The notes beneath the pieces are model-generated. The model was given only the letters and a program-made list of their open reading frames with translations, was not told the origin of the DNA and did no database searches. Source: a virus. Taken from it: a stretch of DNA of 48,924 nucleotides. The DNA lies in the IMG/VR virus record IMGVR_UViG_3300018080_008420, positions 1 to 48,924 of that record. One strand, 5' to 3'. The translations under genes were made by a program, and so were the position numbers. This document shows, piece after piece, positions 33,788 through 48,924 of the stretch. Positions within the stretch are counted from its first letter, which is position 1; each line of letters starts with the position of its first letter.

Positions 33788-35155
33788 TCAACCGCCCGGC
33801 TTGGTTATGTCGTCAAACCGAGTGTATTCCTTATGGAAATAAAGCCACATACGACCGACGGGCCCGTTCCGTTGTTTCGCGACGACGAGCTCGCCGAGGT
33901 TCTCGTACTTCGAACGCTCTTCCTCCTTGGTCTTGTCGTCGAAATACATTTCCGGCCGCCAGAGGAAGAAGACGTTATCGGCGTCTTGCTCGATCGCGCC
34001 GGAGTCCCGGAGATCCGAGAGCCGCGGCCGAGGAGGATTCCGACTCTCGACCGCCCGGGATAGCTGAGAGAGTGCGAGAATATGGACGTCGAACTCCCTC
34101 GCCATTTGCTTTAAGCCGCGAGAGATCGCGCCGACCTGTTGCGTCCGGTTCTCTCCCTCCGACTCCATGAGTTGCAAGTAATCGACGACGACGAGGCCGA
34201 CGTCCTCCTTCGCGTCGAGCCTCCGGACCTTCGCCCGTATGTCGGCGAGCGTTCCTCGAGGCCGGTCGTCGAGCCAGAGAGGCGCCGTATTCAAGTGTCC
34301 GGCCGCGGCCGCGAGCCTTTGGTAATCCTCGGACTTGAGACCTCCGGCGCCGATCGTTTGAAGGCATACCCGGCCCTCGCTCGCCAAGCCTCGGCGGATA
34401 AGTTGAGCGTTCGTCATTTCGAGGGAGAAGATCGCCGTCGGTACGCCAGAGAGAGCCGTCTCGACGGCCGCCTCCCATGCCCAAGCCGACTTACCATGAG
34501 AGGGCCGGGCCGCCAAGACCGAGAGGTCGCCCCTATGGAGGCCGCGGGTCATACGGTCCAGATCCTTAAAGCCGGTCGGGAAGCCGATAACCTCCTTCTT
34601 CGCGGCTTGGTCCCGCTCGATCTCCTCGAACGTTCCCCAAAGGGCCTCCTTGATTGGAAGCAACCCGTCGCCGCCCCCGTCGTCCCGGAGAACGTCGAGG
34701 ATCCTTCCCTCGGCCGCCGTCATTACCTCGGCCGCCGGCCTTCCGTTGAGATCGTAGATATCGCGGATCGTTTTCGAGCTCGCCTCGAGGAGGGCCCGAA
34801 GACGAGACTTATCCCGGACAATCTTGGCGTGATACTCGACGTTGGAAGCCGTCGGGACAGCGTCCAGCAATTCCGCCAAGTAAGGCGCCCCGCCGGCCGC
34901 CTCGAGCTCGCCGGTATCCTTGAGGGTCTCGAGGACCGTTACGACGTCCGCGACGTCTCCTCGGTCTTGTAAGGCACAAAAAACCCGGAAGAGTCTCCGG
35001 TGAGCCTCTCGGTAGAAGTCCGAGTCTTTGAGGATCGTCCGGCTCTCCGAGATCGCGTCCGGCTCGATAAGCATGGCGCCGAGGACCGAGACCTCGGCTT
35101 CCGGCGAGAATGGCGGTTGCCGATCAAAGGCCGAGAGCTCGTCCGGCCCGCTCAT
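33788..35155 (-). CDS. DnaB-like replicative helicase
   Basis: A 455-residue protein, start MSGPDELSAFDRQPPFSPEAE at 35155, overlapping the previous stop (ATGA). The N-terminal primase-binding-like domain (VLGAMLIEPDAISE, VDVVTVLETL region) precedes a RecA core with Walker A ARPSHGKS (216-223), Walker B VVVDYLQLM, and the H4 loop region LSQLSRAVESRNPPRPRLSDLRDSGAIEQDAD. It unwinds duplex DNA ahead of the host polymerase. With no phage polymerase, replication must use the host replisome. It is coupled to the replisome organiser gene. Confidence 0.95.
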   Translation of the reverse strand: MSGPDELSAFDRQPPFSPEAEVSVLGAMLIEPDAISESRTILKDSDFYREAHRRLFRVFCALQDRGDVADVVTVLETLKDTGELEAAGGAPYLAELLDAVPTASNVEYHAKIVRDKSRLRALLEASSKTIRDIYDLNGRPAAEVMTAAEGRILDVLRDDGGGDGLLPIKEALWGTFEEIERDQAAKKEVIGFPTGFKDLDRMTRGLHRGDLSVLAARPSHGKSAWAWEAAVETALSGVPTAIFSLEMTNAQLIRRGLASEGRVCLQTIGAGGLKSEDYQRLAAAAGHLNTAPLWLDDRPRGTLADIRAKVRRLDAKEDVGLVVVDYLQLMESEGENRTQQVGAISRGLKQMAREFDVHILALSQLSRAVESRNPPRPRLSDLRDSGAIEQDADNVFFLWRPEMYFDDKTKEEERSKYENLGELVVAKQRNGPVGRMWLYFHKEYTRFDDITKPGG

Positions 35156-35967
35156 TCCGGTATCTCCAAGTCCGCGGCCCAACCCGGGAGACCGACTTCT
35201 TCCTTCTTCTCCTCGACCCGCCGGCTCCGCTCTTCCCTGGCGAACTTCGCGGCGTTCGAGAACCAATTCCGGAGCGACCGGTCGGGAGACTTCGGCTTAC
35301 GGGATCCGTTGCTCTCCCAATACTCGGCCGCCTTCCGCGTCTCGAGAGCGAAGTCGACGCCAGCGTACGAGGGTTCCCTTTCGATCTCTCGACACCACTC
35401 CGCGAGGGTCCGTTTAAGCTTCCATGGGACCTCGAGGCGTTCGCAAAACGAACCGACCTCGACAACGAAATCGGTCTTTTCCTCCTCCGAAGGGAAGAGA
35501 CTTCCGTTCTCCGTCTCTCCCTGTAAACAGCTTACTTTATTGTTTCCACTATGCGGTGCGGTTTTGCACTCGCCGGGAACCGTCCCGCCGGTCGACTCCT
35601 CTCCGGCGGTATCAAAACGTCCCGCCGGGTCGAGTCTCGATTGCCATTGCTCTTCGGTGACAGGAACGGGCGAGATATACCACTCGTACCCGTCGAAAGT
35701 CCCGTCTTTACCTTGCCTTTTGACGGTCCGAAGGTATCCGCCCTCGCGGAGCTCTTTAAGGCCGGACTTGACCGCCCTCTCCCCGTCACTATGTCGCCTT
35801 ATAAGGTCGGCCCGGTAAAAACGCCACTTGTCCGGGTGGGACAAAAGATACCAAAGGAGACCGACCGCTTTCCAAGAGAGGGCGTCGTCGAAATGGCAAG
35901 CGTTACAAACGACGTTTGCCCAAACGATATCCTCGTCGATGCTGAATTGATTTAGGGTATTTTCCAC
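35152..35967 (-). CDS. Replisome organiser / helicase loader-like protein
   Basis: A 271-residue protein. I place the start at GTG (35967): AAGGAGG lies five bases upstream, and an ATG 21 bases earlier has no such site. The winged helix is at residues about 28-85 (ALSWKAVGLLWYLLSHPDKWRF, GERAVKSGLKELREGGYLR), as in phage replication initiators of the O/DnaD type, followed by a low-complexity middle and a C-terminal segment (RSLRNWFSNAAKFAREERSRR) resembling helicase-interaction regions. It would bind the origin and load the neighbouring DnaB. A structured leader precedes it. Confidence 0.75.
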   Translation of the reverse strand: MENTLNQFSIDEDIVWANVVCNACHFDDALSWKAVGLLWYLLSHPDKWRFYRADLIRRHSDGERAVKSGLKELREGGYLRTVKRQGKDGTFDGYEWYISPVPVTEEQWQSRLDPAGRFDTAGEESTGGTVPGECKTAPHSGNNKVSCLQGETENGSLFPSEEEKTDFVVEVGSFCERLEVPWKLKRTLAEWCREIEREPSYAGVDFALETRKAAEYWESNGSRKPKSPDRSLRNWFSNAAKFAREERSRRVEEKKEEVGLPGWAADLEIPE

Positions 35968-36110
35968 CGTCGCCTCCTTGCAAGGCATAAGGAGGAGAGA
36001 GAGGATCGGACGGGCGAGGAAGGGCAAGGACCTTTCTCGAACCGGCTCGCTCTTGAGAGCCGAGCGGTAAGCGTCTCGCGAAAAACGCTTCCCGCCCTCT
36101 CTCCTCCGTA
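35968..36110 (-). promoter_or_regulatory. Structured leader of replisome organiser gene (candidate RNA switch)
   Basis: On the minus strand the RNA can form a four-way junction. The outer stem pairs 36107-36095 with 35991-36003 (13 pairs, one G-U). Inside are three hairpins: 36090-36069 (arms AAGCGT/ACGCTT), 36068-36041 (near-perfect, arms ACCGCTCG type) and 36039-36015 (nine pairs, one G-U). The 3' strand of the outer stem ends in CCTCCTT (35995-35989), which also pairs perfectly with the Shine-Dalgarno AAGGAGG (35979-35973) over a nine-base loop. The two pairings exclude each other, so the junction could free the ribosome site. No known riboswitch class is recognised. Confidence 0.55.
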
Positions 36111-36173
36111 AGGGATTTCGAAGTTATGGCCGGCGGTCCTCTTTTCCAAGGCCGGCTTTCCTGGCGCCATCCC

Positions 36174-37526
36174 TCAAAAGCCGAGTTGAGGATCGACGCC
36201 GTCCTCGAGAGGCTCTCCTTCGTCCTCTGGCGCCTCCGAGCTCTCCGGAGGCTCCGAAGGACCTTCTTCGCCCCCGTCGCCCTTCTCGGGCGATTCTGGC
36301 TCGTCCTCGAACGTTTCCAGCTTGGCCCGGAGAGCGTCTTTTACCCGGTCGGTTAGGCTCGGATGATCGTAACCGAGAACGAAATGTTTCACGTACCCGC
36401 GTCCCTTCGACGTCTCGAGGACCTCGTCCCAGGTTTTCCGCTTGAATTGACCGAACCCGACAGGAAGAGGACCGACGTCGAGCTCGCCCTCGACGAGCTC
36501 GAACTCTCCCGTATGCTCCGGCTCTTCTTCCTCGGAGAAGTCCGGGAGGTCGACCTCTTCCTCTTCTTCCGGAGGAGGAACGTCGCCGTCGTCGACCGCC
36601 GTCTTCCTCGACTCCTCGAGGCGCCTCCGGATCTCTTCCGTCCGAGCCTCCGTTGCCGACTTCGCCTCTTCCCGTACCCGGATCTCCTCGAGCTCCTTCC
36701 TGGCGTATGGATCGAGAACCCATTCCTCGGCGATATCGCCCTCTTCCTCGAGCTCGTTATCGGCGATCTCCGCGCCCATGCCAGCCGCTAGAGCCTTGAG
36801 CTCCTTCCGCTCGATTTGGTCGGCCTTATGGAAAGCGAGGGCCTCCGTACGAGCTTCCTCGTATGACGCCCGGAGGACGATCCCGACTTTATACGACGTC
36901 GACGTTCCTTCGTCGTGCGTATCGGTTGCAGGATAAACGACGAGCTCGAGAGGAAGACCGCGGAGGGATCCGAACTCCGCCTCGAAAAGACGGAGCGTCG
37001 TTTGAAGATTATTGATCGTCTCCCATGAGGTCGTTCGGAACAAGTGATAACCGCCGTATCTCGAGGCCGCCTCGAGAATGACCGCCAGCCGACCGAACGG
37101 CTTGCAAGGACACTCCTCGCCGAGGGCCCGCCGACAAGTCGCCGACGTCTTCTCCTTGTGATTGATCGCCGTCTCGCCGTCACAAGAGAAGACCTTCGTC
37201 TTCCCTTTGTAGACGAGCATTTCGGATTGAAAGTTGTCCTCGACCGACGCGAACCGGAGCCGGATCGGAAGAGCCTCCGGCGTCGGCCCTAGCTTCTCAT
37301 GGGCGTACGCGTCGACCTCGAAATTCCCGTCGTCTCCCCGCTTCCGGGTTGTGATAAGGAAATGATCGAGCTTGACCGGAAGCCGCATCTTGGCGCCCGA
37401 CCTCGTCTCGATCTCCTTCCCCTTGCCCCCGATCTTGATTTTCCCGAGCTCCATGGGCCGCGGCCGCATAAGAGTCGGCGAGATCGTCCTCCGGAGCTCT
37501 GGCGTTCCGTTCGTCTTGTCTTCCAT
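36174..37526 (-). CDS. gp3-like protein (recombination directionality factor family)
   Basis: A 450-residue protein. Residues 51-180 match the gp3/RDF family: VKLDHFLITTRKRG, LPIRLRFASVEDNFQSEMLVYKGKTKVFSCDGETA, CPCKPFGRLAVILEAASRYGGYHLFRTTSWETINNL. Cysteines C115, C131, C139 and C141 suggest bound zinc. The C-terminal 180 residues are acidic and low complexity. In integrating phages such factors steer serine integrase, but no integrase is present here; beside a YqaJ exonuclease it could instead act in single-strand annealing. The repeated leader motif precedes the start. Confidence 0.75.
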   Translation of the reverse strand: MEDKTNGTPELRRTISPTLMRPRPMELGKIKIGGKGKEIETRSGAKMRLPVKLDHFLITTRKRGDDGNFEVDAYAHEKLGPTPEALPIRLRFASVEDNFQSEMLVYKGKTKVFSCDGETAINHKEKTSATCRRALGEECPCKPFGRLAVILEAASRYGGYHLFRTTSWETINNLQTTLRLFEAEFGSLRGLPLELVVYPATDTHDEGTSTSYKVGIVLRASYEEARTEALAFHKADQIERKELKALAAGMGAEIADNELEEEGDIAEEWVLDPYARKELEEIRVREEAKSATEARTEEIRRRLEESRKTAVDDGDVPPPEEEEEVDLPDFSEEEEPEHTGEFELVEGELDVGPLPVGFGQFKRKTWDEVLETSKGRGYVKHFVLGYDHPSLTDRVKDALRAKLETFEDEPESPEKGDGGEEGPSEPPESSEAPEDEGEPLEDGVDPQLGF

Positions 37527-40030: not shown

Positions 40031-40045
40031 CTCTCCTTGGTCGTT
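40031..40045 (-). promoter_or_regulatory. Repeated leader/ribosome site
   Basis: AACGACCAAGGAGAG, six bases before the small CxC gene start. Best match to the leader consensus together with the copy at 32296. Confidence 0.7.
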
Positions 40046-40820
40046 AGTTGAGCTCTCGAGCCCAACGGGTCTTTCTGCAAGTCGGAGCCTTGTCGGTCCG
40101 AGCTCGCGAGGGTCGATTCCATGTCCCGCCCTTCGTCCGAGCCTCCGGAGTCCAGCCGGCCGCCCGGAGCGAGGTCCCGCTCTCCGTTTCTAGGGTGTAC
40201 GTAATGATCTTCTCGAAGCCGCGTCGCTTCGCTTCCCGGGCCGCTTCCGCGTACGCTTGGCTCGCCGCGTTCCATAGGAGCTCGCCCTCGATTGAATCAT
40301 GCGCCAAGCAAAGCCGGTTTACCTCGACCGTCGTCGTACCGTCGATCATGCGGGCAACCGGTCGACCGACCATAACGACGCCGACGAGATCGGGCCCGTT
40401 ATGGATCCCGTATCCCCAACGCCAGGAGACCGGCGGCCGGTTGTGCCTATGGTGGTCGAGGACGAACGCCTTCGCCGTCTTGAGGTCGATCGGCTCGAGA
40501 CGGATACCGAAGTCGAGGAGGGCCCGCCCGTCTCCGGAGGCAACCGTCCGGAGCTCGATCCCATGACCGGCGAAGACCCGACGGAGCGAGGAGAGGTATT
40601 CCTTCCGCTCGTCCCGGCCCATTGTCCGGAGAGCCTCCGAGAGATCCTCCCGGAGGTCTTCCTCGGCGTCTCCACAGCAAGCGACGACTTGAAAGGCCCT
40701 CTCCTCCGGATAAACCTCGAAGAGGTCCCAAGCCCAAAGCTCGCCGCAAAAAGGACAAGTCTCGCCGGTCGTATAACCGCCAGCGAAGAGAACGTCGGGC
40801 TCCCAATGAAGCTCGCTCAT
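40044..40820 (-). CDS. XF1762-family GNAT-like protein
   Basis: A 258-residue protein. CPFC at residues 22-25 and ACCG near 47-50 suggest an N-terminal zinc ribbon. Residues 123-205 match the XF1762-type family, a GNAT-like fold: HRHNRPPVSWRWGYGI, LVGVVMVGRPVARMI, TVEVNRLCLAHD and a YTLETESGTSLRAAGW element near the end. Phage Mu Mom, which modifies adenines in DNA, has a GNAT-like fold, so a link to DNA modification is possible. Its ATG sits at the stop of the DpdA-like gene (TAATG), so the two are coupled. Confidence 0.7.
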   Translation of the reverse strand: MSELHWEPDVLFAGGYTTGETCPFCGELWAWDLFEVYPEERAFQVVACCGDAEEDLREDLSEALRTMGRDERKEYLSSLRRVFAGHGIELRTVASGDGRALLDFGIRLEPIDLKTAKAFVLDHHRHNRPPVSWRWGYGIHNGPDLVGVVMVGRPVARMIDGTTTVEVNRLCLAHDSIEGELLWNAASQAYAEAAREAKRRGFEKIITYTLETESGTSLRAAGWTPEARTKGGTWNRPSRARTDKAPTCRKTRWARELN

Positions 40821-42763: not shown

Positions 42764-42787
42764 TGTGTTTCCTTTCTTCGAGGGTCC

Positions 42788-42800
42788 GTCTCCTTGGTCG
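42788..42800 (-). promoter_or_regulatory. Repeated leader upstream of first early gene
   Basis: CGACCAAGGAGAC, 24 bases before the ATG at 42763 and therefore not itself the ribosome site, which is AAAGGAAA nearer the start. Member of the seven-copy leader set. Confidence 0.6.
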
Positions 42801-42810
42801 CTATCAAGTT

Positions 42811-42827
42811 CGTTCCCTACGGGAACG
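42811..42827. promoter_or_regulatory. Perfect dyad, candidate operator
   Basis: CGTTCCC-TAC-GGGAACG, seven paired bases around a three-base centre, just upstream of the first early gene. The symmetric shape suits a dimeric repressor; the Cro-like gene at 39520 is a candidate regulator. Function is inferred. Confidence 0.5.
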
Positions 42828-42892
42828 AGGTCAAGCGAAAAATTCCAGTTTTCTAGAATTTGTCGCAAAATCGGCGAAATTCTTACAAAAGC

Positions 42893-42919
42893 TTCGGGAG
42901 ACCTTCGGGTTTTTTCGGG
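42893..42919 (-). repeat. Triple CCCGAA iteron cluster 1
   Basis: Three copies of CCCGAA on the minus strand at 42919-42914, 42909-42904 and 42898-42893, spaced 10 and 11 bases, one helical turn each. A second inverted cluster lies at 43861-43886. The spacing suggests binding sites for one protein on one face of the helix. Confidence 0.55.
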
Positions 42920-42943
42920 AGCGATTGGTAACGGAAAAGACGA

Positions 42944-42975
42944 GGGCCCTCCCGGAGCAAGTCCGAAGAGGGCCC
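42944..42975 (-). terminator. Rho-independent terminator after the spanin-like gene
   Basis: On the minus strand, GGGCCCTC and GAGGGCCC pair over eight bases; CGGA/TCCG adds a second stem inside. The sequence after the hairpin is TCGTCTTTTCC, a short T run. It lies 140 bases downstream of the late operon's last gene, so it likely ends late transcription before the early promoter region. Confidence 0.75.
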
Positions 42976-43027
42976 AAGGGCGCCCGGTAGAACCTCAACC
43001 GCGAGAGGCGCGAGGAGGGAGCCGGAA

Positions 43028-43042
43028 GACCGGACGCCGGTC
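43028..43042 (-). other. Perfect short hairpin
   Basis: GACCGG-CGT-CCGGTC on the minus strand (arms of six bases, three-base loop). It lies between two other hairpins in the control region and may be a processing or binding element. No T run follows. Confidence 0.35.
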
Positions 43043-43080
43043 CTACGCTTCGACCAAGAAGCTTCCGACCGTCCTACAAA

Positions 43081-43105
43081 TTACCCGGCCCCGAGAGACC
43101 GGTAA
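43081..43105 (-). terminator. Weak terminator-like hairpin after the spanin-like gene
   Basis: TTACCGG pairs with CCGGGTAA (one bulged base) and is followed by TTTG, 10 bases after the stop. It is weaker than the hairpin at 42944-42975, so the two may act together. Confidence 0.4.
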
Positions 43106-43115
43106 AGGCAAACGT

Positions 43116-44062: not shown

Positions 44063-44509
44063 TCAGAGCTCCCGGATATGGACCCAAACCCGATCGCCAG
44101 CCTCGAGGGCCGCGATAACCTTCCGGTAAAGAGCGACGTAAGCCGGCGTCGATCGACCGATCTCAAACTCGCCCGTCGGTAGGATAACCGGGAGCTCGCC
44201 GACGAGCGGGCAACCCGCCGTATCGTCGGCGTCGTTCCCGATATGGATATAAACCCACTCGAAGCCGGGTACGTCTTGAAGCCAGAGCATACCCTTATGC
44301 AAGTCCGGAAACCGAGCCTTGTACTTCTTATGGAGACCGCCAGCCTTGCGGAGCTTGATCTCGTACGATCCGACCGGAATACAAGTATATCCCGGTACCT
44401 TGACGTCCCGACGCTCGTCCTCGAGGGAGAAGAAGGAGAGAGACCCGAGCGAAATACGGCCGAGAGTCGAGTCCCGGCCGTATCCCATTCGAGAGAGGTA
44501 AAGGTTCAT
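44063..44509 (-). CDS. DUF5675 family protein, candidate lysis enzyme
   Basis: A 148-residue protein. VKVPGYTCIPVGSYEIKL (residues 36-53) and LWLQDVPGFEWVYIHIGNDADDTAGCPLVG (75-104) match the DUF5675 family. H89 and C100 with intervening GNxxxDTxGC resemble the H...(S/T)xGC centre of YkuD L,D-transpeptidases, so action on peptidoglycan is possible. It lies between the fibre gene and the spanin-like gene, where lysis genes often are, and no other endolysin is visible in the genome. Enzyme activity is inferred. Confidence 0.7.
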   Translation of the reverse strand: MNLYLSRMGYGRDSTLGRISLGSLSFFSLEDERRDVKVPGYTCIPVGSYEIKLRKAGGLHKKYKARFPDLHKGMLWLQDVPGFEWVYIHIGNDADDTAGCPLVGELPVILPTGEFEIGRSTPAYVALYRKVIAALEAGDRVWVHIREL

Positions 44510-47500
44510 ACGCCGACGCCGATCCCCAATCCGACGCCGTTAGGCTTGAAAGGAATAACGCTCGAGAGCTCCTCCGAAAGTCCAGTAAAGAGGGCCGCCC
44601 ATTCGTCTGCGGTAAGCTCGAGACCCCCCGGCTTAATGACCGCCGCTCCCAATAAGAAGCCCTCTCCGGGATAAGAAATACTCTCAATATTGAAGAAGGA
44701 TAGGTCGTCGGTCCCTGCCAGCGTCCCGAGAACGACCTCTCCCGGGCTTCCCGACCCGACTCCGTCTTTGATTATTTTGGCTTGGGTCCTCGACTCGTCC
44801 CATTGGGCCGCGGCTCCGGCGGTCTCGAGAGAGCCGGCCGTATCCTCGAAATGAATATCGGTCGCTTCCGCCAAGCCGTCGCTTGCCTCCGCCCATAACC
44901 GGTTATTGCTGGCGATCGTTCCCAAATGGAGACCCTCCGCGGCCGTCGCCGTCGACGTTCTCTTTCCCATTATCCAACCGTTCAAGGATATAGAGCTCCG
45001 GAACAAAGCGAAGTAAACCAAGTCCTCTCCGTCCGAACCGAGGTCGGTCTTGTGAGAAACGAGGATAATATCGTCCGTCGATCCCTGGATCTCGTTCCCG
45101 CTTATTACGTCCATTACGAGACCGGAGGAGCTCCGGGTAAACGTCCAAGTCTTCGCCGGGTCGATTGCGTCCGGACAAGTCGCGTCGCCCGGTCCGACGT
45201 TGTCGGTATCCGTAAAGTCGAGACCGTTTACGATCGTCCCGCCCATTTCGAACCAAACGCCGAAGAGATCGCCGTCGTAAGGATTCTGTCCGTCGGAATG
45301 ATAGACCGCGATTATCGCGTCGTTATTCGCGAGAGCCGTTCCCGTAAGGCCGGAGGCGACAGGGTCGCCCAATTGTTCCCAACCGGTTACGAGAGCCGGA
45401 TCGTATGTCGTATCCTTCGCGACTTGGAAGGTTAGGAGGCTCGTCGCGGTATCGTATAGATACCGGGCCCAAACGTACCCTTCGTCCTCCGGGACCGCCT
45501 CGGTCGAATCTTTCGTCGAGTTCCCGTCGGTTAATTCGAGACGGACACTCAAGAGGCCCGACGTTTTAAGAAGAAGGTAATTGTCGTATCCTGTCCAAGC
45601 TCCGAAGGACGCTCCCGAGGCCGGTCTCCAATTCCCGTCCGAACATCTTCCGATAATGCCAAACGTCGAGACGGTCGTAAGGTCGACGCTATTGTCGGAG
45701 AGTCGGACATAATTCCCGTCGACGCCATTACATCGAAGATACTGTTTCCCGTCCGTAACCAACCGGTCGGAGGGATCGTTCGCCGAGGCGCCGGACCCGC
45801 CCGTCGTTTCGAAGGTTTGGCCGGCGTCGTCGTCGAATTCGAGACCGTAAAGAGCTTGAGCGTCGAGCGAAGTAAAGTCCGTATCTACATGAGTCGTCCC
45901 GTCCGTCTCGAGATACGCCTTATAAACCCGGTAGGGTTCGGCTCCGTGAGAGTATGAGAGGTAAAGTTTTCGATCGGCCCCGAGCGCCGTTACCCCTGTC
46001 CCCGCGGTCGCGGTCGGACCCGATCCCAAGGTCCAACCGGTATCGTCGGATAACGCCTTCGACGTATCGGTTCGATAGTAGAGACTTACCGTACGATTCC
46101 CGGCTCCGTCGTTTCCGTCGAAGTCGACCCGCACTTGTATCCTGTCCCAAGGATCGAGGGAAGGCGCCGTAACGCCAGCGCCGACGACGCCGCTATCGAA
46201 AGTCCAGAGAGCGCCAAAACCGCCGGCCGTCGTTAGGCCGATATAACCCGGGCCGGCTCCGAAGATCATTGGATACATACTCGCGGAGGGCGTCCAATCC
46301 TCGAAGGCGAATTCGATCCGCATAGTTCCGGCTTCGTCGCCGTTTATGTCGTTCCCGATCGCGTCTTGTGTAATGACGGCCGCGAGCCCGCTCTTCGGAA
46401 CATATGCCGAGTTTACGCCGGCCGCGTCCGGAACAATCGCGGAGCGGAGCTTCCCGTAATATCCGTGATTCCCGGCCTTGCCAGCCTTCAAGACGAGAGG
46501 GATCGAGCCGAAGTCGTCCCGGTGCCAGTATTCGACGACCCGGTCGTCTTCTTGGAGGATCGAATCCGGGACAGCCTGAACCGTAAACTCTCGGTATGCC
46601 GCGAAGTCGCCCCATTCGTTGACCCGGTTCTTCGCCCGGACCCGCCAGTAATAAACGTCCTCGTCGAGACCTAGCGAGCTCATAAACTCCGCGACGTCGA
46701 TCGTATCGTCTTCCTCGACGATCGAAGCGAAGCCCGTATCCGTCGCGATCTCGATCTCGTATCCCTCGGCGTAATCCGGAGAGCTCCAAGTGAAATGCGG
46801 CGTCGATTGGTTACCCGCGACCTCGTCGTCGGGTTGAAGCAAGGAAGGAGCGTCCGGAGCTCGCGTATTCGTAAGCTCCGACAGGATCGAAGCCCATTCC
46901 GTCGAGTCGAAGTTTACGCCGGCCGGCTTGGCGACGAAGGCGCCGCAAATAAAGCCGGAGGCGGCATTTGTCACGCCGTCCGCGCCTTGGAGGAAGGAGA
47001 GGTCCTCCGAGCTCGTAATCGAGCCCGTCGGCGTCGTCGCCGGACCGCCGCTCCCGCTCCCGTCGAGGAAAGCCTCGAGCTCGTCTTCGGAATCGTCGCG
47101 TTGACCCGCCAGCATTCGACGAACGAGGTCGCCCGCTATTGATCCCGTAATATTATCGTTGCCCTCGGTCGTTCCGTTGCTGTTTTCGGTCCAAATCCGA
47201 TCCGAGCTTGCTATCCCGACCAAAAGACCGGGCGAACCCGCCGCCGAGTTGAGCCGGTTACCCATAAGGATTTGAGTCGTCCCGTCGAGCGAGCTCCTCC
47301 AAATGAGACCGTAAACGAGGTCTTCTTCGTCGCTCTCGAGGTCGGCATGATATGGGACGAGAAGGATATCGTCCGTCGATCCTTGGATCTCGTTATGCTC
47401 GATAATGTCGCCGACCATACCCGAGGCCGAGCGGTCGAAGGTCCAAGAGACGCCCGAGAGATACGGGTCCGATTGGGAGGTCTCTCCGGCGCCGACCGTG

Positions 47501-48924
47501 TCGGTATCTGTAAAGTCGAGGCCCATTACGACTTCGCCGTCTTGTAAGACCAGCGCCGTATAAATCTTCCCGTCGAAGGGCCCGCTCCCGCCAGTAGATC
47601 CGGCGCCGATCGAAATGTTCCGGGCGTAAGCTTGCTTCGCCGTATCGCCCGTCGTTACCGGGTCGCCGAGTTGAGCCCAACCGGCGTCGTCCGGATCCGT
47701 TAGGACGTCGGTCGAGGTATAGAAAACCATCGTCCCGGTCGAAGCCGTATACTCGAATTTTATGCTTCTCGGGAGGTCGTCGTCCGGGACGCTCTCCGTC
47801 GACGTCAAGGTATAAGCGTTATGCCCTCCGGCCCCGTCGGTGAGAAAGAGTCGGTAAGTAACTGTCCCCGCCGTCCCGACCCAAATTCGGTCGTACGAGC
47901 TCCTCGCGATCGGCGACTCCGTCGACGACGCCGGCCGCCAACCGTCGGAGGGTATGAAATGGGTTATGAAACCCCAAGTATCCGCGGTTAATGCGTCCGG
48001 CTCTACCGCCGAGCTCCGGATAACATTCCCGGCAACGCCGTTGTTTCGGTAATACTGCAAGCCGTCGTCGACGAGCCGGTTCGAAGGATCGTTCGCCGTT
48101 GCGCCGGAGGCGTTTATCGTTACGGTATGAGAGCCGGCGTCCTCTTCGAAGCTCTCCGTCCCTTCCTCTTGAGCCGTAAAGTCGATATCGAGGAGCTCGG
48201 CCGAACGAGCGAGGTCGCTCCAAAGGCGGACGCCGTAGATCCCGCCGTAATGATCGAAGGAATAGGTATCGGACCCATTGAGTCGAGTCCCGATTTCAAT
48301 TTGACTACTCCCCGGCTGGATCGACGTCGTCGCGCCCTCGTTCTCGGTGCTCCCGATTTGCGTCGGAGTATCGGAAGGCTCGTCTCCCGTCCCGCCGTCC
48401 CAAAATTTTACGTCGGCGTCTCCGGCGTCGTTATCGCCGTCCATTGAAACGCCAAGCCAAAACGACGTACCGTCCGCGATCCCGTAATCGTCTACGTTTG
48501 TGTCGCAAGTAAGGGCGTTTTCCGAGCTTCCGTCGTGCCAATAAAGTCTCGGAGCTCCGGCCGCCGTAAGAGCCAGGAACCAAGAGTATTTATCGCCCGA
48601 CGTTTCCCATCTAGCGACGAGGATCTTTATCGAGGCTCCTCCGGTAAAGTCCCAGTCTTCCGCCTGGACCTTAACGAAAAGGACCATATCCTCGTCGATA
48701 TCGTCGAGTCCGGCGAAGTCCGGTATACTCGCGAAGTTGTTCGCCTCGGACGGAAGGAAGAGTCGTACGACGCCGGCCGAGTCCTTGAGGAGAGCGGCCC
48801 GCTTGGCTCCATAATGGGCATGGTGGCCCGCCTTCGAGCCGACCCAAACCTTATCGAGCTTCCCGATATCGTCGCGGTGCCAATACTCAACGATTCTCGA
48901 ATCCGTATCGAGAAATAAAGACAT
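44506..48924 (-). CDS. Tail fibre with duplicated lectin-like halves
   Basis: A 1472-residue protein. Two related halves (about 1-690 and 795-1472) repeat the same elements: YWHRDD near each start, then VWVG/LVLK, RAALLKDSAGV versus RSAIVPDAAGV, ASGATANDPSNRLV versus GSGASANDPSDRLV, and EIQGSTDDI in both. Between them lies a fibronectin type III-like domain at about 690-785 (YAEGYEIEIATDTGF, YYWRVRAKNRVNEWGDFAAY). The repeating beta pattern with WGF/WTF strands suggests concanavalin-like lectin domains. The start codon is the last base of the window. It likely binds the host surface. Confidence 0.75.
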   Translation of the reverse strand: MSLFLDTDSRIVEYWHRDDIGKLDKVWVGSKAGHHAHYGAKRAALLKDSAGVVRLFLPSEANNFASIPDFAGLDDIDEDMVLFVKVQAEDWDFTGGASIKILVARWETSGDKYSWFLALTAAGAPRLYWHDGSSENALTCDTNVDDYGIADGTSFWLGVSMDGDNDAGDADVKFWDGGTGDEPSDTPTQIGSTENEGATTSIQPGSSQIEIGTRLNGSDTYSFDHYGGIYGVRLWSDLARSAELLDIDFTAQEEGTESFEEDAGSHTVTINASGATANDPSNRLVDDGLQYYRNNGVAGNVIRSSAVEPDALTADTWGFITHFIPSDGWRPASSTESPIARSSYDRIWVGTAGTVTYRLFLTDGAGGHNAYTLTSTESVPDDDLPRSIKFEYTASTGTMVFYTSTDVLTDPDDAGWAQLGDPVTTGDTAKQAYARNISIGAGSTGGSGPFDGKIYTALVLQDGEVVMGLDFTDTDTVGAGETSQSDPYLSGVSWTFDRSASGMVGDIIEHNEIQGSTDDILLVPYHADLESDEEDLVYGLIWRSSLDGTTQILMGNRLNSAAGSPGLLVGIASSDRIWTENSNGTTEGNDNITGSIAGDLVRRMLAGQRDDSEDELEAFLDGSGSGGPATTPTGSITSSEDLSFLQGADGVTNAASGFICGAFVAKPAGVNFDSTEWASILSELTNTRAPDAPSLLQPDDEVAGNQSTPHFTWSSPDYAEGYEIEIATDTGFASIVEEDDTIDVAEFMSSLGLDEDVYYWRVRAKNRVNEWGDFAAYREFTVQAVPDSILQEDDRVVEYWHRDDFGSIPLVLKAGKAGNHGYYGKLRSAIVPDAAGVNSAYVPKSGLAAVITQDAIGNDINGDEAGTMRIEFAFEDWTPSASMYPMIFGAGPGYIGLTTAGGFGALWTFDSGVVGAGVTAPSLDPWDRIQVRVDFDGNDGAGNRTVSLYYRTDTSKALSDDTGWTLGSGPTATAGTGVTALGADRKLYLSYSHGAEPYRVYKAYLETDGTTHVDTDFTSLDAQALYGLEFDDDAGQTFETTGGSGASANDPSDRLVTDGKQYLRCNGVDGNYVRLSDNSVDLTTVSTFGIIGRCSDGNWRPASGASFGAWTGYDNYLLLKTSGLLSVRLELTDGNSTKDSTEAVPEDEGYVWARYLYDTATSLLTFQVAKDTTYDPALVTGWEQLGDPVASGLTGTALANNDAIIAVYHSDGQNPYDGDLFGVWFEMGGTIVNGLDFTDTDNVGPGDATCPDAIDPAKTWTFTRSSSGLVMDVISGNEIQGSTDDIILVSHKTDLGSDGEDLVYFALFRSSISLNGWIMGKRTSTATAAEGLHLGTIASNNRLWAEASDGLAEATDIHFEDTAGSLETAGAAAQWDESRTQAKIIKDGVGSGSPGEVVLGTLAGTDDLSFFNIESISYPGEGFLLGAAVIKPGGLELTADEWAALFTGLSEELSSVIPFKPNGVGLGIGVGV

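Follow-up and report, generated by a model that had tools for sequence, protein, structure and literature searches.

A noncoding leader with two mutually exclusive pairings before a phage replication initiator gene: a candidate translational-control RNA

Gene content of the locus

The sequence analysed was the 48,924-nt IMG/VR record IMGVR_UViG_3300018080_008420 of an uncharacterised phage; this whole stretch is called the window. All gene calls in the 48.9-kb window are on the minus strand. A noncoding gap separates the gene for a Gp3-like protein from a replication initiator gene, and the latter overlaps the following DnaB helicase gene by 4 nt (Table 1). The original prediction had named the gene downstream of the leader a replisome organiser. 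This agrees with its matches to PHROG replication-initiation/HTH families and with its homologues, which carry the annotation RepA-like replication initiator. The GTG start yields the N-terminus that is predicted by the relatives. An in-frame ATG (35988-35986) sits within the loop of the Shine-Dalgarno (SD) hairpin described below and lacks its own SD. Several genes of the early region have the ribosome site GACCAAGGAGAG in common (5' of 32289, 39488, 39780 and 40024, with a variant at 37526, all on the minus strand), and the initiator gene lacks this site.

Table 1. Features of the initiator leader and its neighbouring genes (positions in the window).
Feature	Position	Strand	Basis
DnaB-like replicative helicase gene	33788-35155	-	PF03796, E 1e-89
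Replication initiator/replisome organiser gene, RepA-like, winged-HTH type, GTG start at 35967	35152-35967	-	PHROG
Noncoding leader/intergenic gap, 206 nt	35968-36173	-	Gene calls; 5' of initiator gene
Gene 5' of the leader, recombination-directionality-factor-like (Gp3-like)	36174-37526	-	PF18897, E 7e-27
Outer stem, 5' arm UACGGAGGAGAGAG, includes SD-like GGAGGAG	36097-36110	-	Inverted repeat I1, 93% complementary
Enclosed hairpin 1	36069-36090	-	Minimum-energy fold
Enclosed hairpin 2	36041-36068	-	Minimum-energy fold
Enclosed hairpin 3	36015-36039	-	Minimum-energy fold
Outer stem, 3' arm CUCUCUCCUCCUUA	35988-36001	-	Inverted repeat I1
Anti-SD CCUCCUU, arm common to both folds	35989-35995	-	Sequence; composite shuffle test
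SD AAGGAGG	35973-35979	-	Sequence; 5 nt 5' of GTG start
Small alternative hairpin GCCUU-GCAAG-GAGGC	35972-35986	-	Covers GAGG of SD when outer stem forms

The only close copy found was the contig IMGVR_UViG_3300017991_000181, which is essentially the same phage and identical through the leader region. It bridges both ends of the window (1 and 48924) via ~3.65 kb missing from the window; therefore, a circular or permuted genome map of about 52.6 kb is probable. Otherwise, viral and genome collections queried with the initiator, helicase, Gp3-like and YqaJ proteins gave distant homologues only. Queries with an alignment and with the DNA pattern of the SD hairpin returned the near-identical contig or distant homologues only, and a blastn search of phages gave no match. 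A 12-sequence alignment was too diverged to serve as a search query.

Two further features of the window were recorded. A gene for a Mom-like DNA-modification protein lies at 40044-40820 (PHROG 1384, E 5e-30). A diverged 86-nt direct repeat (45013-45096 and 47311-47394, 78% identity) lies within a very long gene (44506-48924) that had no Pfam match.

Structure of the leader

The outer stem pairs 36110-36097 with 36001-35988 by 13 of 14 possible Watson-Crick pairs, with one C.U mismatch. The predicted 13-pair stem around three hairpins is thus present on the minus strand; the minimum-energy fold replaces the single 13-pair stem by 10 outer and 7 inner pairs separated by a 7-nt bulge. The SD hairpin joins 35989-35995 to 35973-35979 in a perfect 7-bp helix with a 9-nt loop (-9.5 kcal/mol), and this confirms the claim that CCTCCTT of the 3' arm is perfectly complementary to the SD. 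As the anti-SD arm is complementary to the SD and is at the same time part of the outer stem, the two pairings are mutually exclusive, in line with the original prediction.

Comparison with shuffled sequences

The leader (35968-36110) folds with -68.4 kcal/mol. This is better than shuffled sequence, which was the check proposed at the outset: the z-score was -3.39, and 6 of 2000 dinucleotide shuffles were as good. For the entire 206-nt gap, the fold z-score was -2.47. Relative to shuffles, another noncoding gap of the window (42764-43115, 352 nt) is comparable to the gap of the initiator leader, with a z-score of -2.49. Among 2439 sliding windows of this GC-rich phage, the leader fold comes only about 12th after GC correction, with better folds in several coding stretches. 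Fold energy alone was set aside as evidence because this genome-wide rank is unexceptional.

The single elements were then compared with chance. Inverted repeats that match the quality of the outer stem occur three times in the window, with 3.1 expected; taken by itself, the outer stem does not exceed chance. The SD hairpin alone was found in 235 of 10,000 dinucleotide-shuffled leaders (2.4%), and in 9% of shuffles limited to the 45 nt 5' of the SD. Among the 52 SD-bearing genes of the window, only the initiator gene has an SD hairpin of at least 7 bp.

The composite of the 7-bp SD hairpin and the 13/14 long-range helix, with the anti-SD arm in common, appeared in none of 10,000 dinucleotide shuffles. 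The 95% upper bound is 3e-4, and correction for about 52 genes raises it to about 0.016; as the thresholds were fixed at the observed values, the corrected bound is somewhat generous. The element above chance is the combination of the SD hairpin and the long helix on a common arm.

Predicted states and access to the SD

For 35968-36110, the outer-stem fold is predicted to be favoured over the SD-hairpin fold by 3.9 kcal/mol. The same preference is predicted for most transcripts with 5' ends between 36110 and 36260. For transcripts that start at 36280 or further upstream, the SD hairpin is predicted to win. As the winning fold varies with the start site, the prediction hinges on the assumed 5' end.

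According to the original prediction, formation of the junction frees the ribosome site. In the calculations, mean SD openness rises from about 0.03 in the SD-hairpin state to 0.43 in the junction state, which supports the claim in part. The SD would not be fully free in the outer-stem state, because the small hairpin GCCUU/GAGGC (35986-35982 with 35976-35972, -7.0 kcal/mol alone) covers four of its seven bases (GAGG). The freeing of the SD by the junction is therefore predicted to be a matter of degree.

Temperature had been named as one possible signal. The computed SD openness was 0.44 at 10 C and fell with warming, reaching 0.28 at 55 C, so the calculation contradicts temperature sensing, and an RNA thermometer was rejected on this computational ground. 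The leader is like RNA thermometers and translational riboswitches in that the SD is sequestered by a complementary strand having an alternative partner. It is unlike them in the drop of SD openness on warming and in having no match to an Rfam aptamer.

Search for known RNA classes

The window had no Rfam match at the gathering threshold, and the 3.3-kb locus around the leader had none at E up to 1. The suggested riboswitch could hence not be placed in a known family, as no aptamer was matched in the window or in the 3.3-kb locus. An intrinsic transcription attenuator was rejected: 35968-36173 contains neither a terminator-like site nor a U-run. A tRNA-like element was rejected as well, since ARAGORN recognised neither a tRNA nor a tmRNA in the window. 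The sole sense-strand open reading frame across the leader among those listed (72 aa, 35952-36170) has a codon score of -15 and was classed as noncoding, and a translated leader peptide was rejected for this reason. No promoter was recognised. In the literature, we did not find a phage leader with such a competing plan described.

Structured leaders are established for plasmid initiators. In ColIb-P9 repZ (IncI-alpha) and IncL/M repA, a structured leader governs the access of ribosomes by alternative pairings near the SD, and control relies on a leader peptide that is translated, an antisense RNA and a pseudoknot. References to the original work on these plasmids are given in PMC10724649. The window leader is like these in that an initiator message would be gated by alternative pairings near the SD. 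It is unlike them in the leader peptide, as its crossing reading frame looks noncoding; the folding calculations used cover pseudoknot-free structures. By analogy, it resembles ColIb-P9 repZ control in principle and is not a member on the features tested.

Initiator leaders of other phages

The homologous initiator gene of Tank/SilentRX-type Arthrobacter phages is preceded by a noncoding gap of 246-268 nt. RNAalifold was unhelpful on these leaders, as MAFFT misplaces the 5' hairpin, and the arms were compared directly instead. In AWGoat, the outer pairing is AGATGACACACA...TGTGTGTCATCT and the SD hairpin is ATCTCC...GGAGAT, with ATCT in common. In Wilde, the outer pairing is AGATGACACACCC...GGGTGTGTTGTCT and the SD hairpin is GTCTCC...GGAGAC. 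Between the two SD hairpins there is a compensatory change from A-U to G-C, which the outer stem accommodates through wobble.

The composite was found in 0 of 10,000 shuffles for AWGoat, 3 of 10,000 for Wilde and 0 of 2000 for BruhMoment. Rizwana showed it weakly (66 of 2000), and the long helix was different or short in MellowYellow and Ranunculus. In the window, AWGoat, SilentRX, Wilde and BruhMoment, the long helix on the anti-SD arm goes beyond the shuffle expectation. The two states are predicted to be 0.4-2.6 kcal/mol apart in AWGoat, Wilde and BruhMoment. Among the 74 SD-bearing genes of AWGoat, only the initiator gene, which is homologous to that of the window, has an SD hairpin of at least 7 bp.

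The SD hairpin is the most widely shared part. It was found in all Arthrobacter lineages and in the Gordonia phages Cafasso and Morgana, where it has 7 bp and a notable long helix is absent. The initiator genes of Microbacterium, Rhodococcus and several Gordonia phages do not have it (absent in seven Microbacterium phages, REQ2, Whack, Clawz, VanLee and Aleemily). In the Microbacterium phages of the MementoMori kind (L013, L025-L029), the initiator gene is preceded by a structured gap of ~210 nt, again with no SD hairpin. In Cinna-like Microbacterium members, CTACGA can pair with TCGTAG, and the overlapping CGAGTA with TACTCG.

The Arthrobacter leaders, which lie 5' of RepA-like initiator genes (L012 1357-1458, L015 1377-1458, L017, L018, L020, L022 and L023), are members of a conserved leader-RNA family. 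Similar leaders that precede the replication modules of metagenomic phages (L051 607-701, L052 1288-1388) belong to it as well. The family is characterised by a GATG/CATC hairpin, a distal pairing to this hairpin and a covarying SD hairpin, with a CAAG..TAC core in most Arthrobacter members; it had no Rfam match.

The Arthrobacter leaders (AWGoat, SilentRX, Wilde, Tank and BruhMoment) are like the window leader in the noncoding gap and in the competition of a far-upstream arm with the SD for one anti-SD arm. They differ from it in their GATG/CATC hairpin and CAAG..TAC motif, neither of which is present in the window leader. A profile of the Arthrobacter leaders gave no match at the window leader, and there was no sequence similarity. 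As no sequence is in common, the resemblance is one of plan on a homologous gene; it does not imply homology of the RNAs.

Alternative explanations

The main competing explanation is that the leader is ordinary GC-rich intergenic DNA, in which purine and pyrimidine runs are complementary by chance and have no regulatory role. We consider this possible, with a probability of roughly one third. It is consistent with the number of equally good inverted repeats in the window, the leader's place among the sliding windows, the frequency of the SD hairpin in both kinds of shuffles and the fact that the feature was chosen by eye out of 49 kb. It does not account well for the combination, which the shuffles never reproduced, or for the same plan at the same singular gene in a phage lineage that is unrelated in DNA. 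A static SD hairpin that holds initiator translation at a fixed lower level, with an incidental outer stem and no switching, would fit the wide occurrence of the SD hairpin and the weak or different long helix in Rizwana, MellowYellow and Ranunculus. It is very unlikely given the long helix on the anti-SD arm, which exceeds its shuffle frequency in the window and four of the Arthrobacter phages.

The leader could also act as DNA, either as an origin or as a binding site for the initiator or a repressor, with dyads that appear as hairpins. The position directly 5' of the initiator and helicase genes speaks for this, and the fold of the complementary strand is almost as good (-67.3 kcal/mol, z -3.07). 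An origin at the leader had been allowed for in the original prediction. The oriL of SPP1, a phage origin located in or next to the initiator gene, shares the neighbourhood of phage replication genes with the window leader (PMC6316719). It differs in that it consists of direct repeats and an AT-rich element within the gene, whereas the window leader is rich in hairpins. An origin of the SPP1/lambda type (direct repeats and an AT-rich unwinding element) was rejected for the leader, which has no repeat array, and no AT-rich stretch lies within 36000-36170. A DNA element would also leave the coincidence with the SD unexplained, and we regard it as improbable.

Inside the initiator gene (35510-35628), the near-identical 13-mers ACCGTCCCGCCGG and AACGTCCCGCCGG lie 37 nt apart. 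They adjoin the most AT-rich stretch of the gene (GC 0.47), in the linker that follows the HTH domain. This repeat is a weak origin candidate, and its motif is not above chance window-wide (seven seen, 5.3 expected).

Interpretation

Both pairings are present and exclusive, their predicted energies differ by no more than about 3-4 kcal/mol, and the two together were not reproduced by shuffles. We put the chance that the leader acts in cis as a translational-control RNA of the initiator at about even. A translation switch is probable because the plan recurs at homologous genes of some other phages. The control would perhaps extend to DnaB through the 4-nt gene overlap. In terms of mechanism, the leader would most likely work as an SD-sequestering switch, as judged by the predicted stable SD hairpin and an alternative partner for the anti-SD.

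In the proposed mechanism, the anti-SD CCUCCUU paired with the SD would represent the locked state. The anti-SD paired with the far-upstream SD-like strand would close the three-hairpin junction and represent a less locked state, and the balance of both states would set the output of the initiator. That the RNA is produced, that it switches and that translation responds is what we infer here. The likeliest triggers would be how far the transcript extends at its 5' end, whether the upstream gene is being translated, or the binding of a protein, for example the initiator.

A wider reading is that diverse phages control the RepA-like initiator via leader RNAs with a single anti-SD arm, for which the SD competes with an upstream strand that mimics it. 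They would form a recurrent, possibly convergent class of switches that Rfam does not include; the Arthrobacter-phage leaders would be a conserved family of this class, and the window a distant example of it. We offer this generalisation tentatively and regard it as rather unlikely.

Arthrobacter phages with such leaders grow on laboratory hosts, so that direct testing is possible. If the switch is real, the leader would offer a simple handle on the commitment to phage DNA replication, and this commitment step would be under the control of an RNA, as in some low-copy plasmids.
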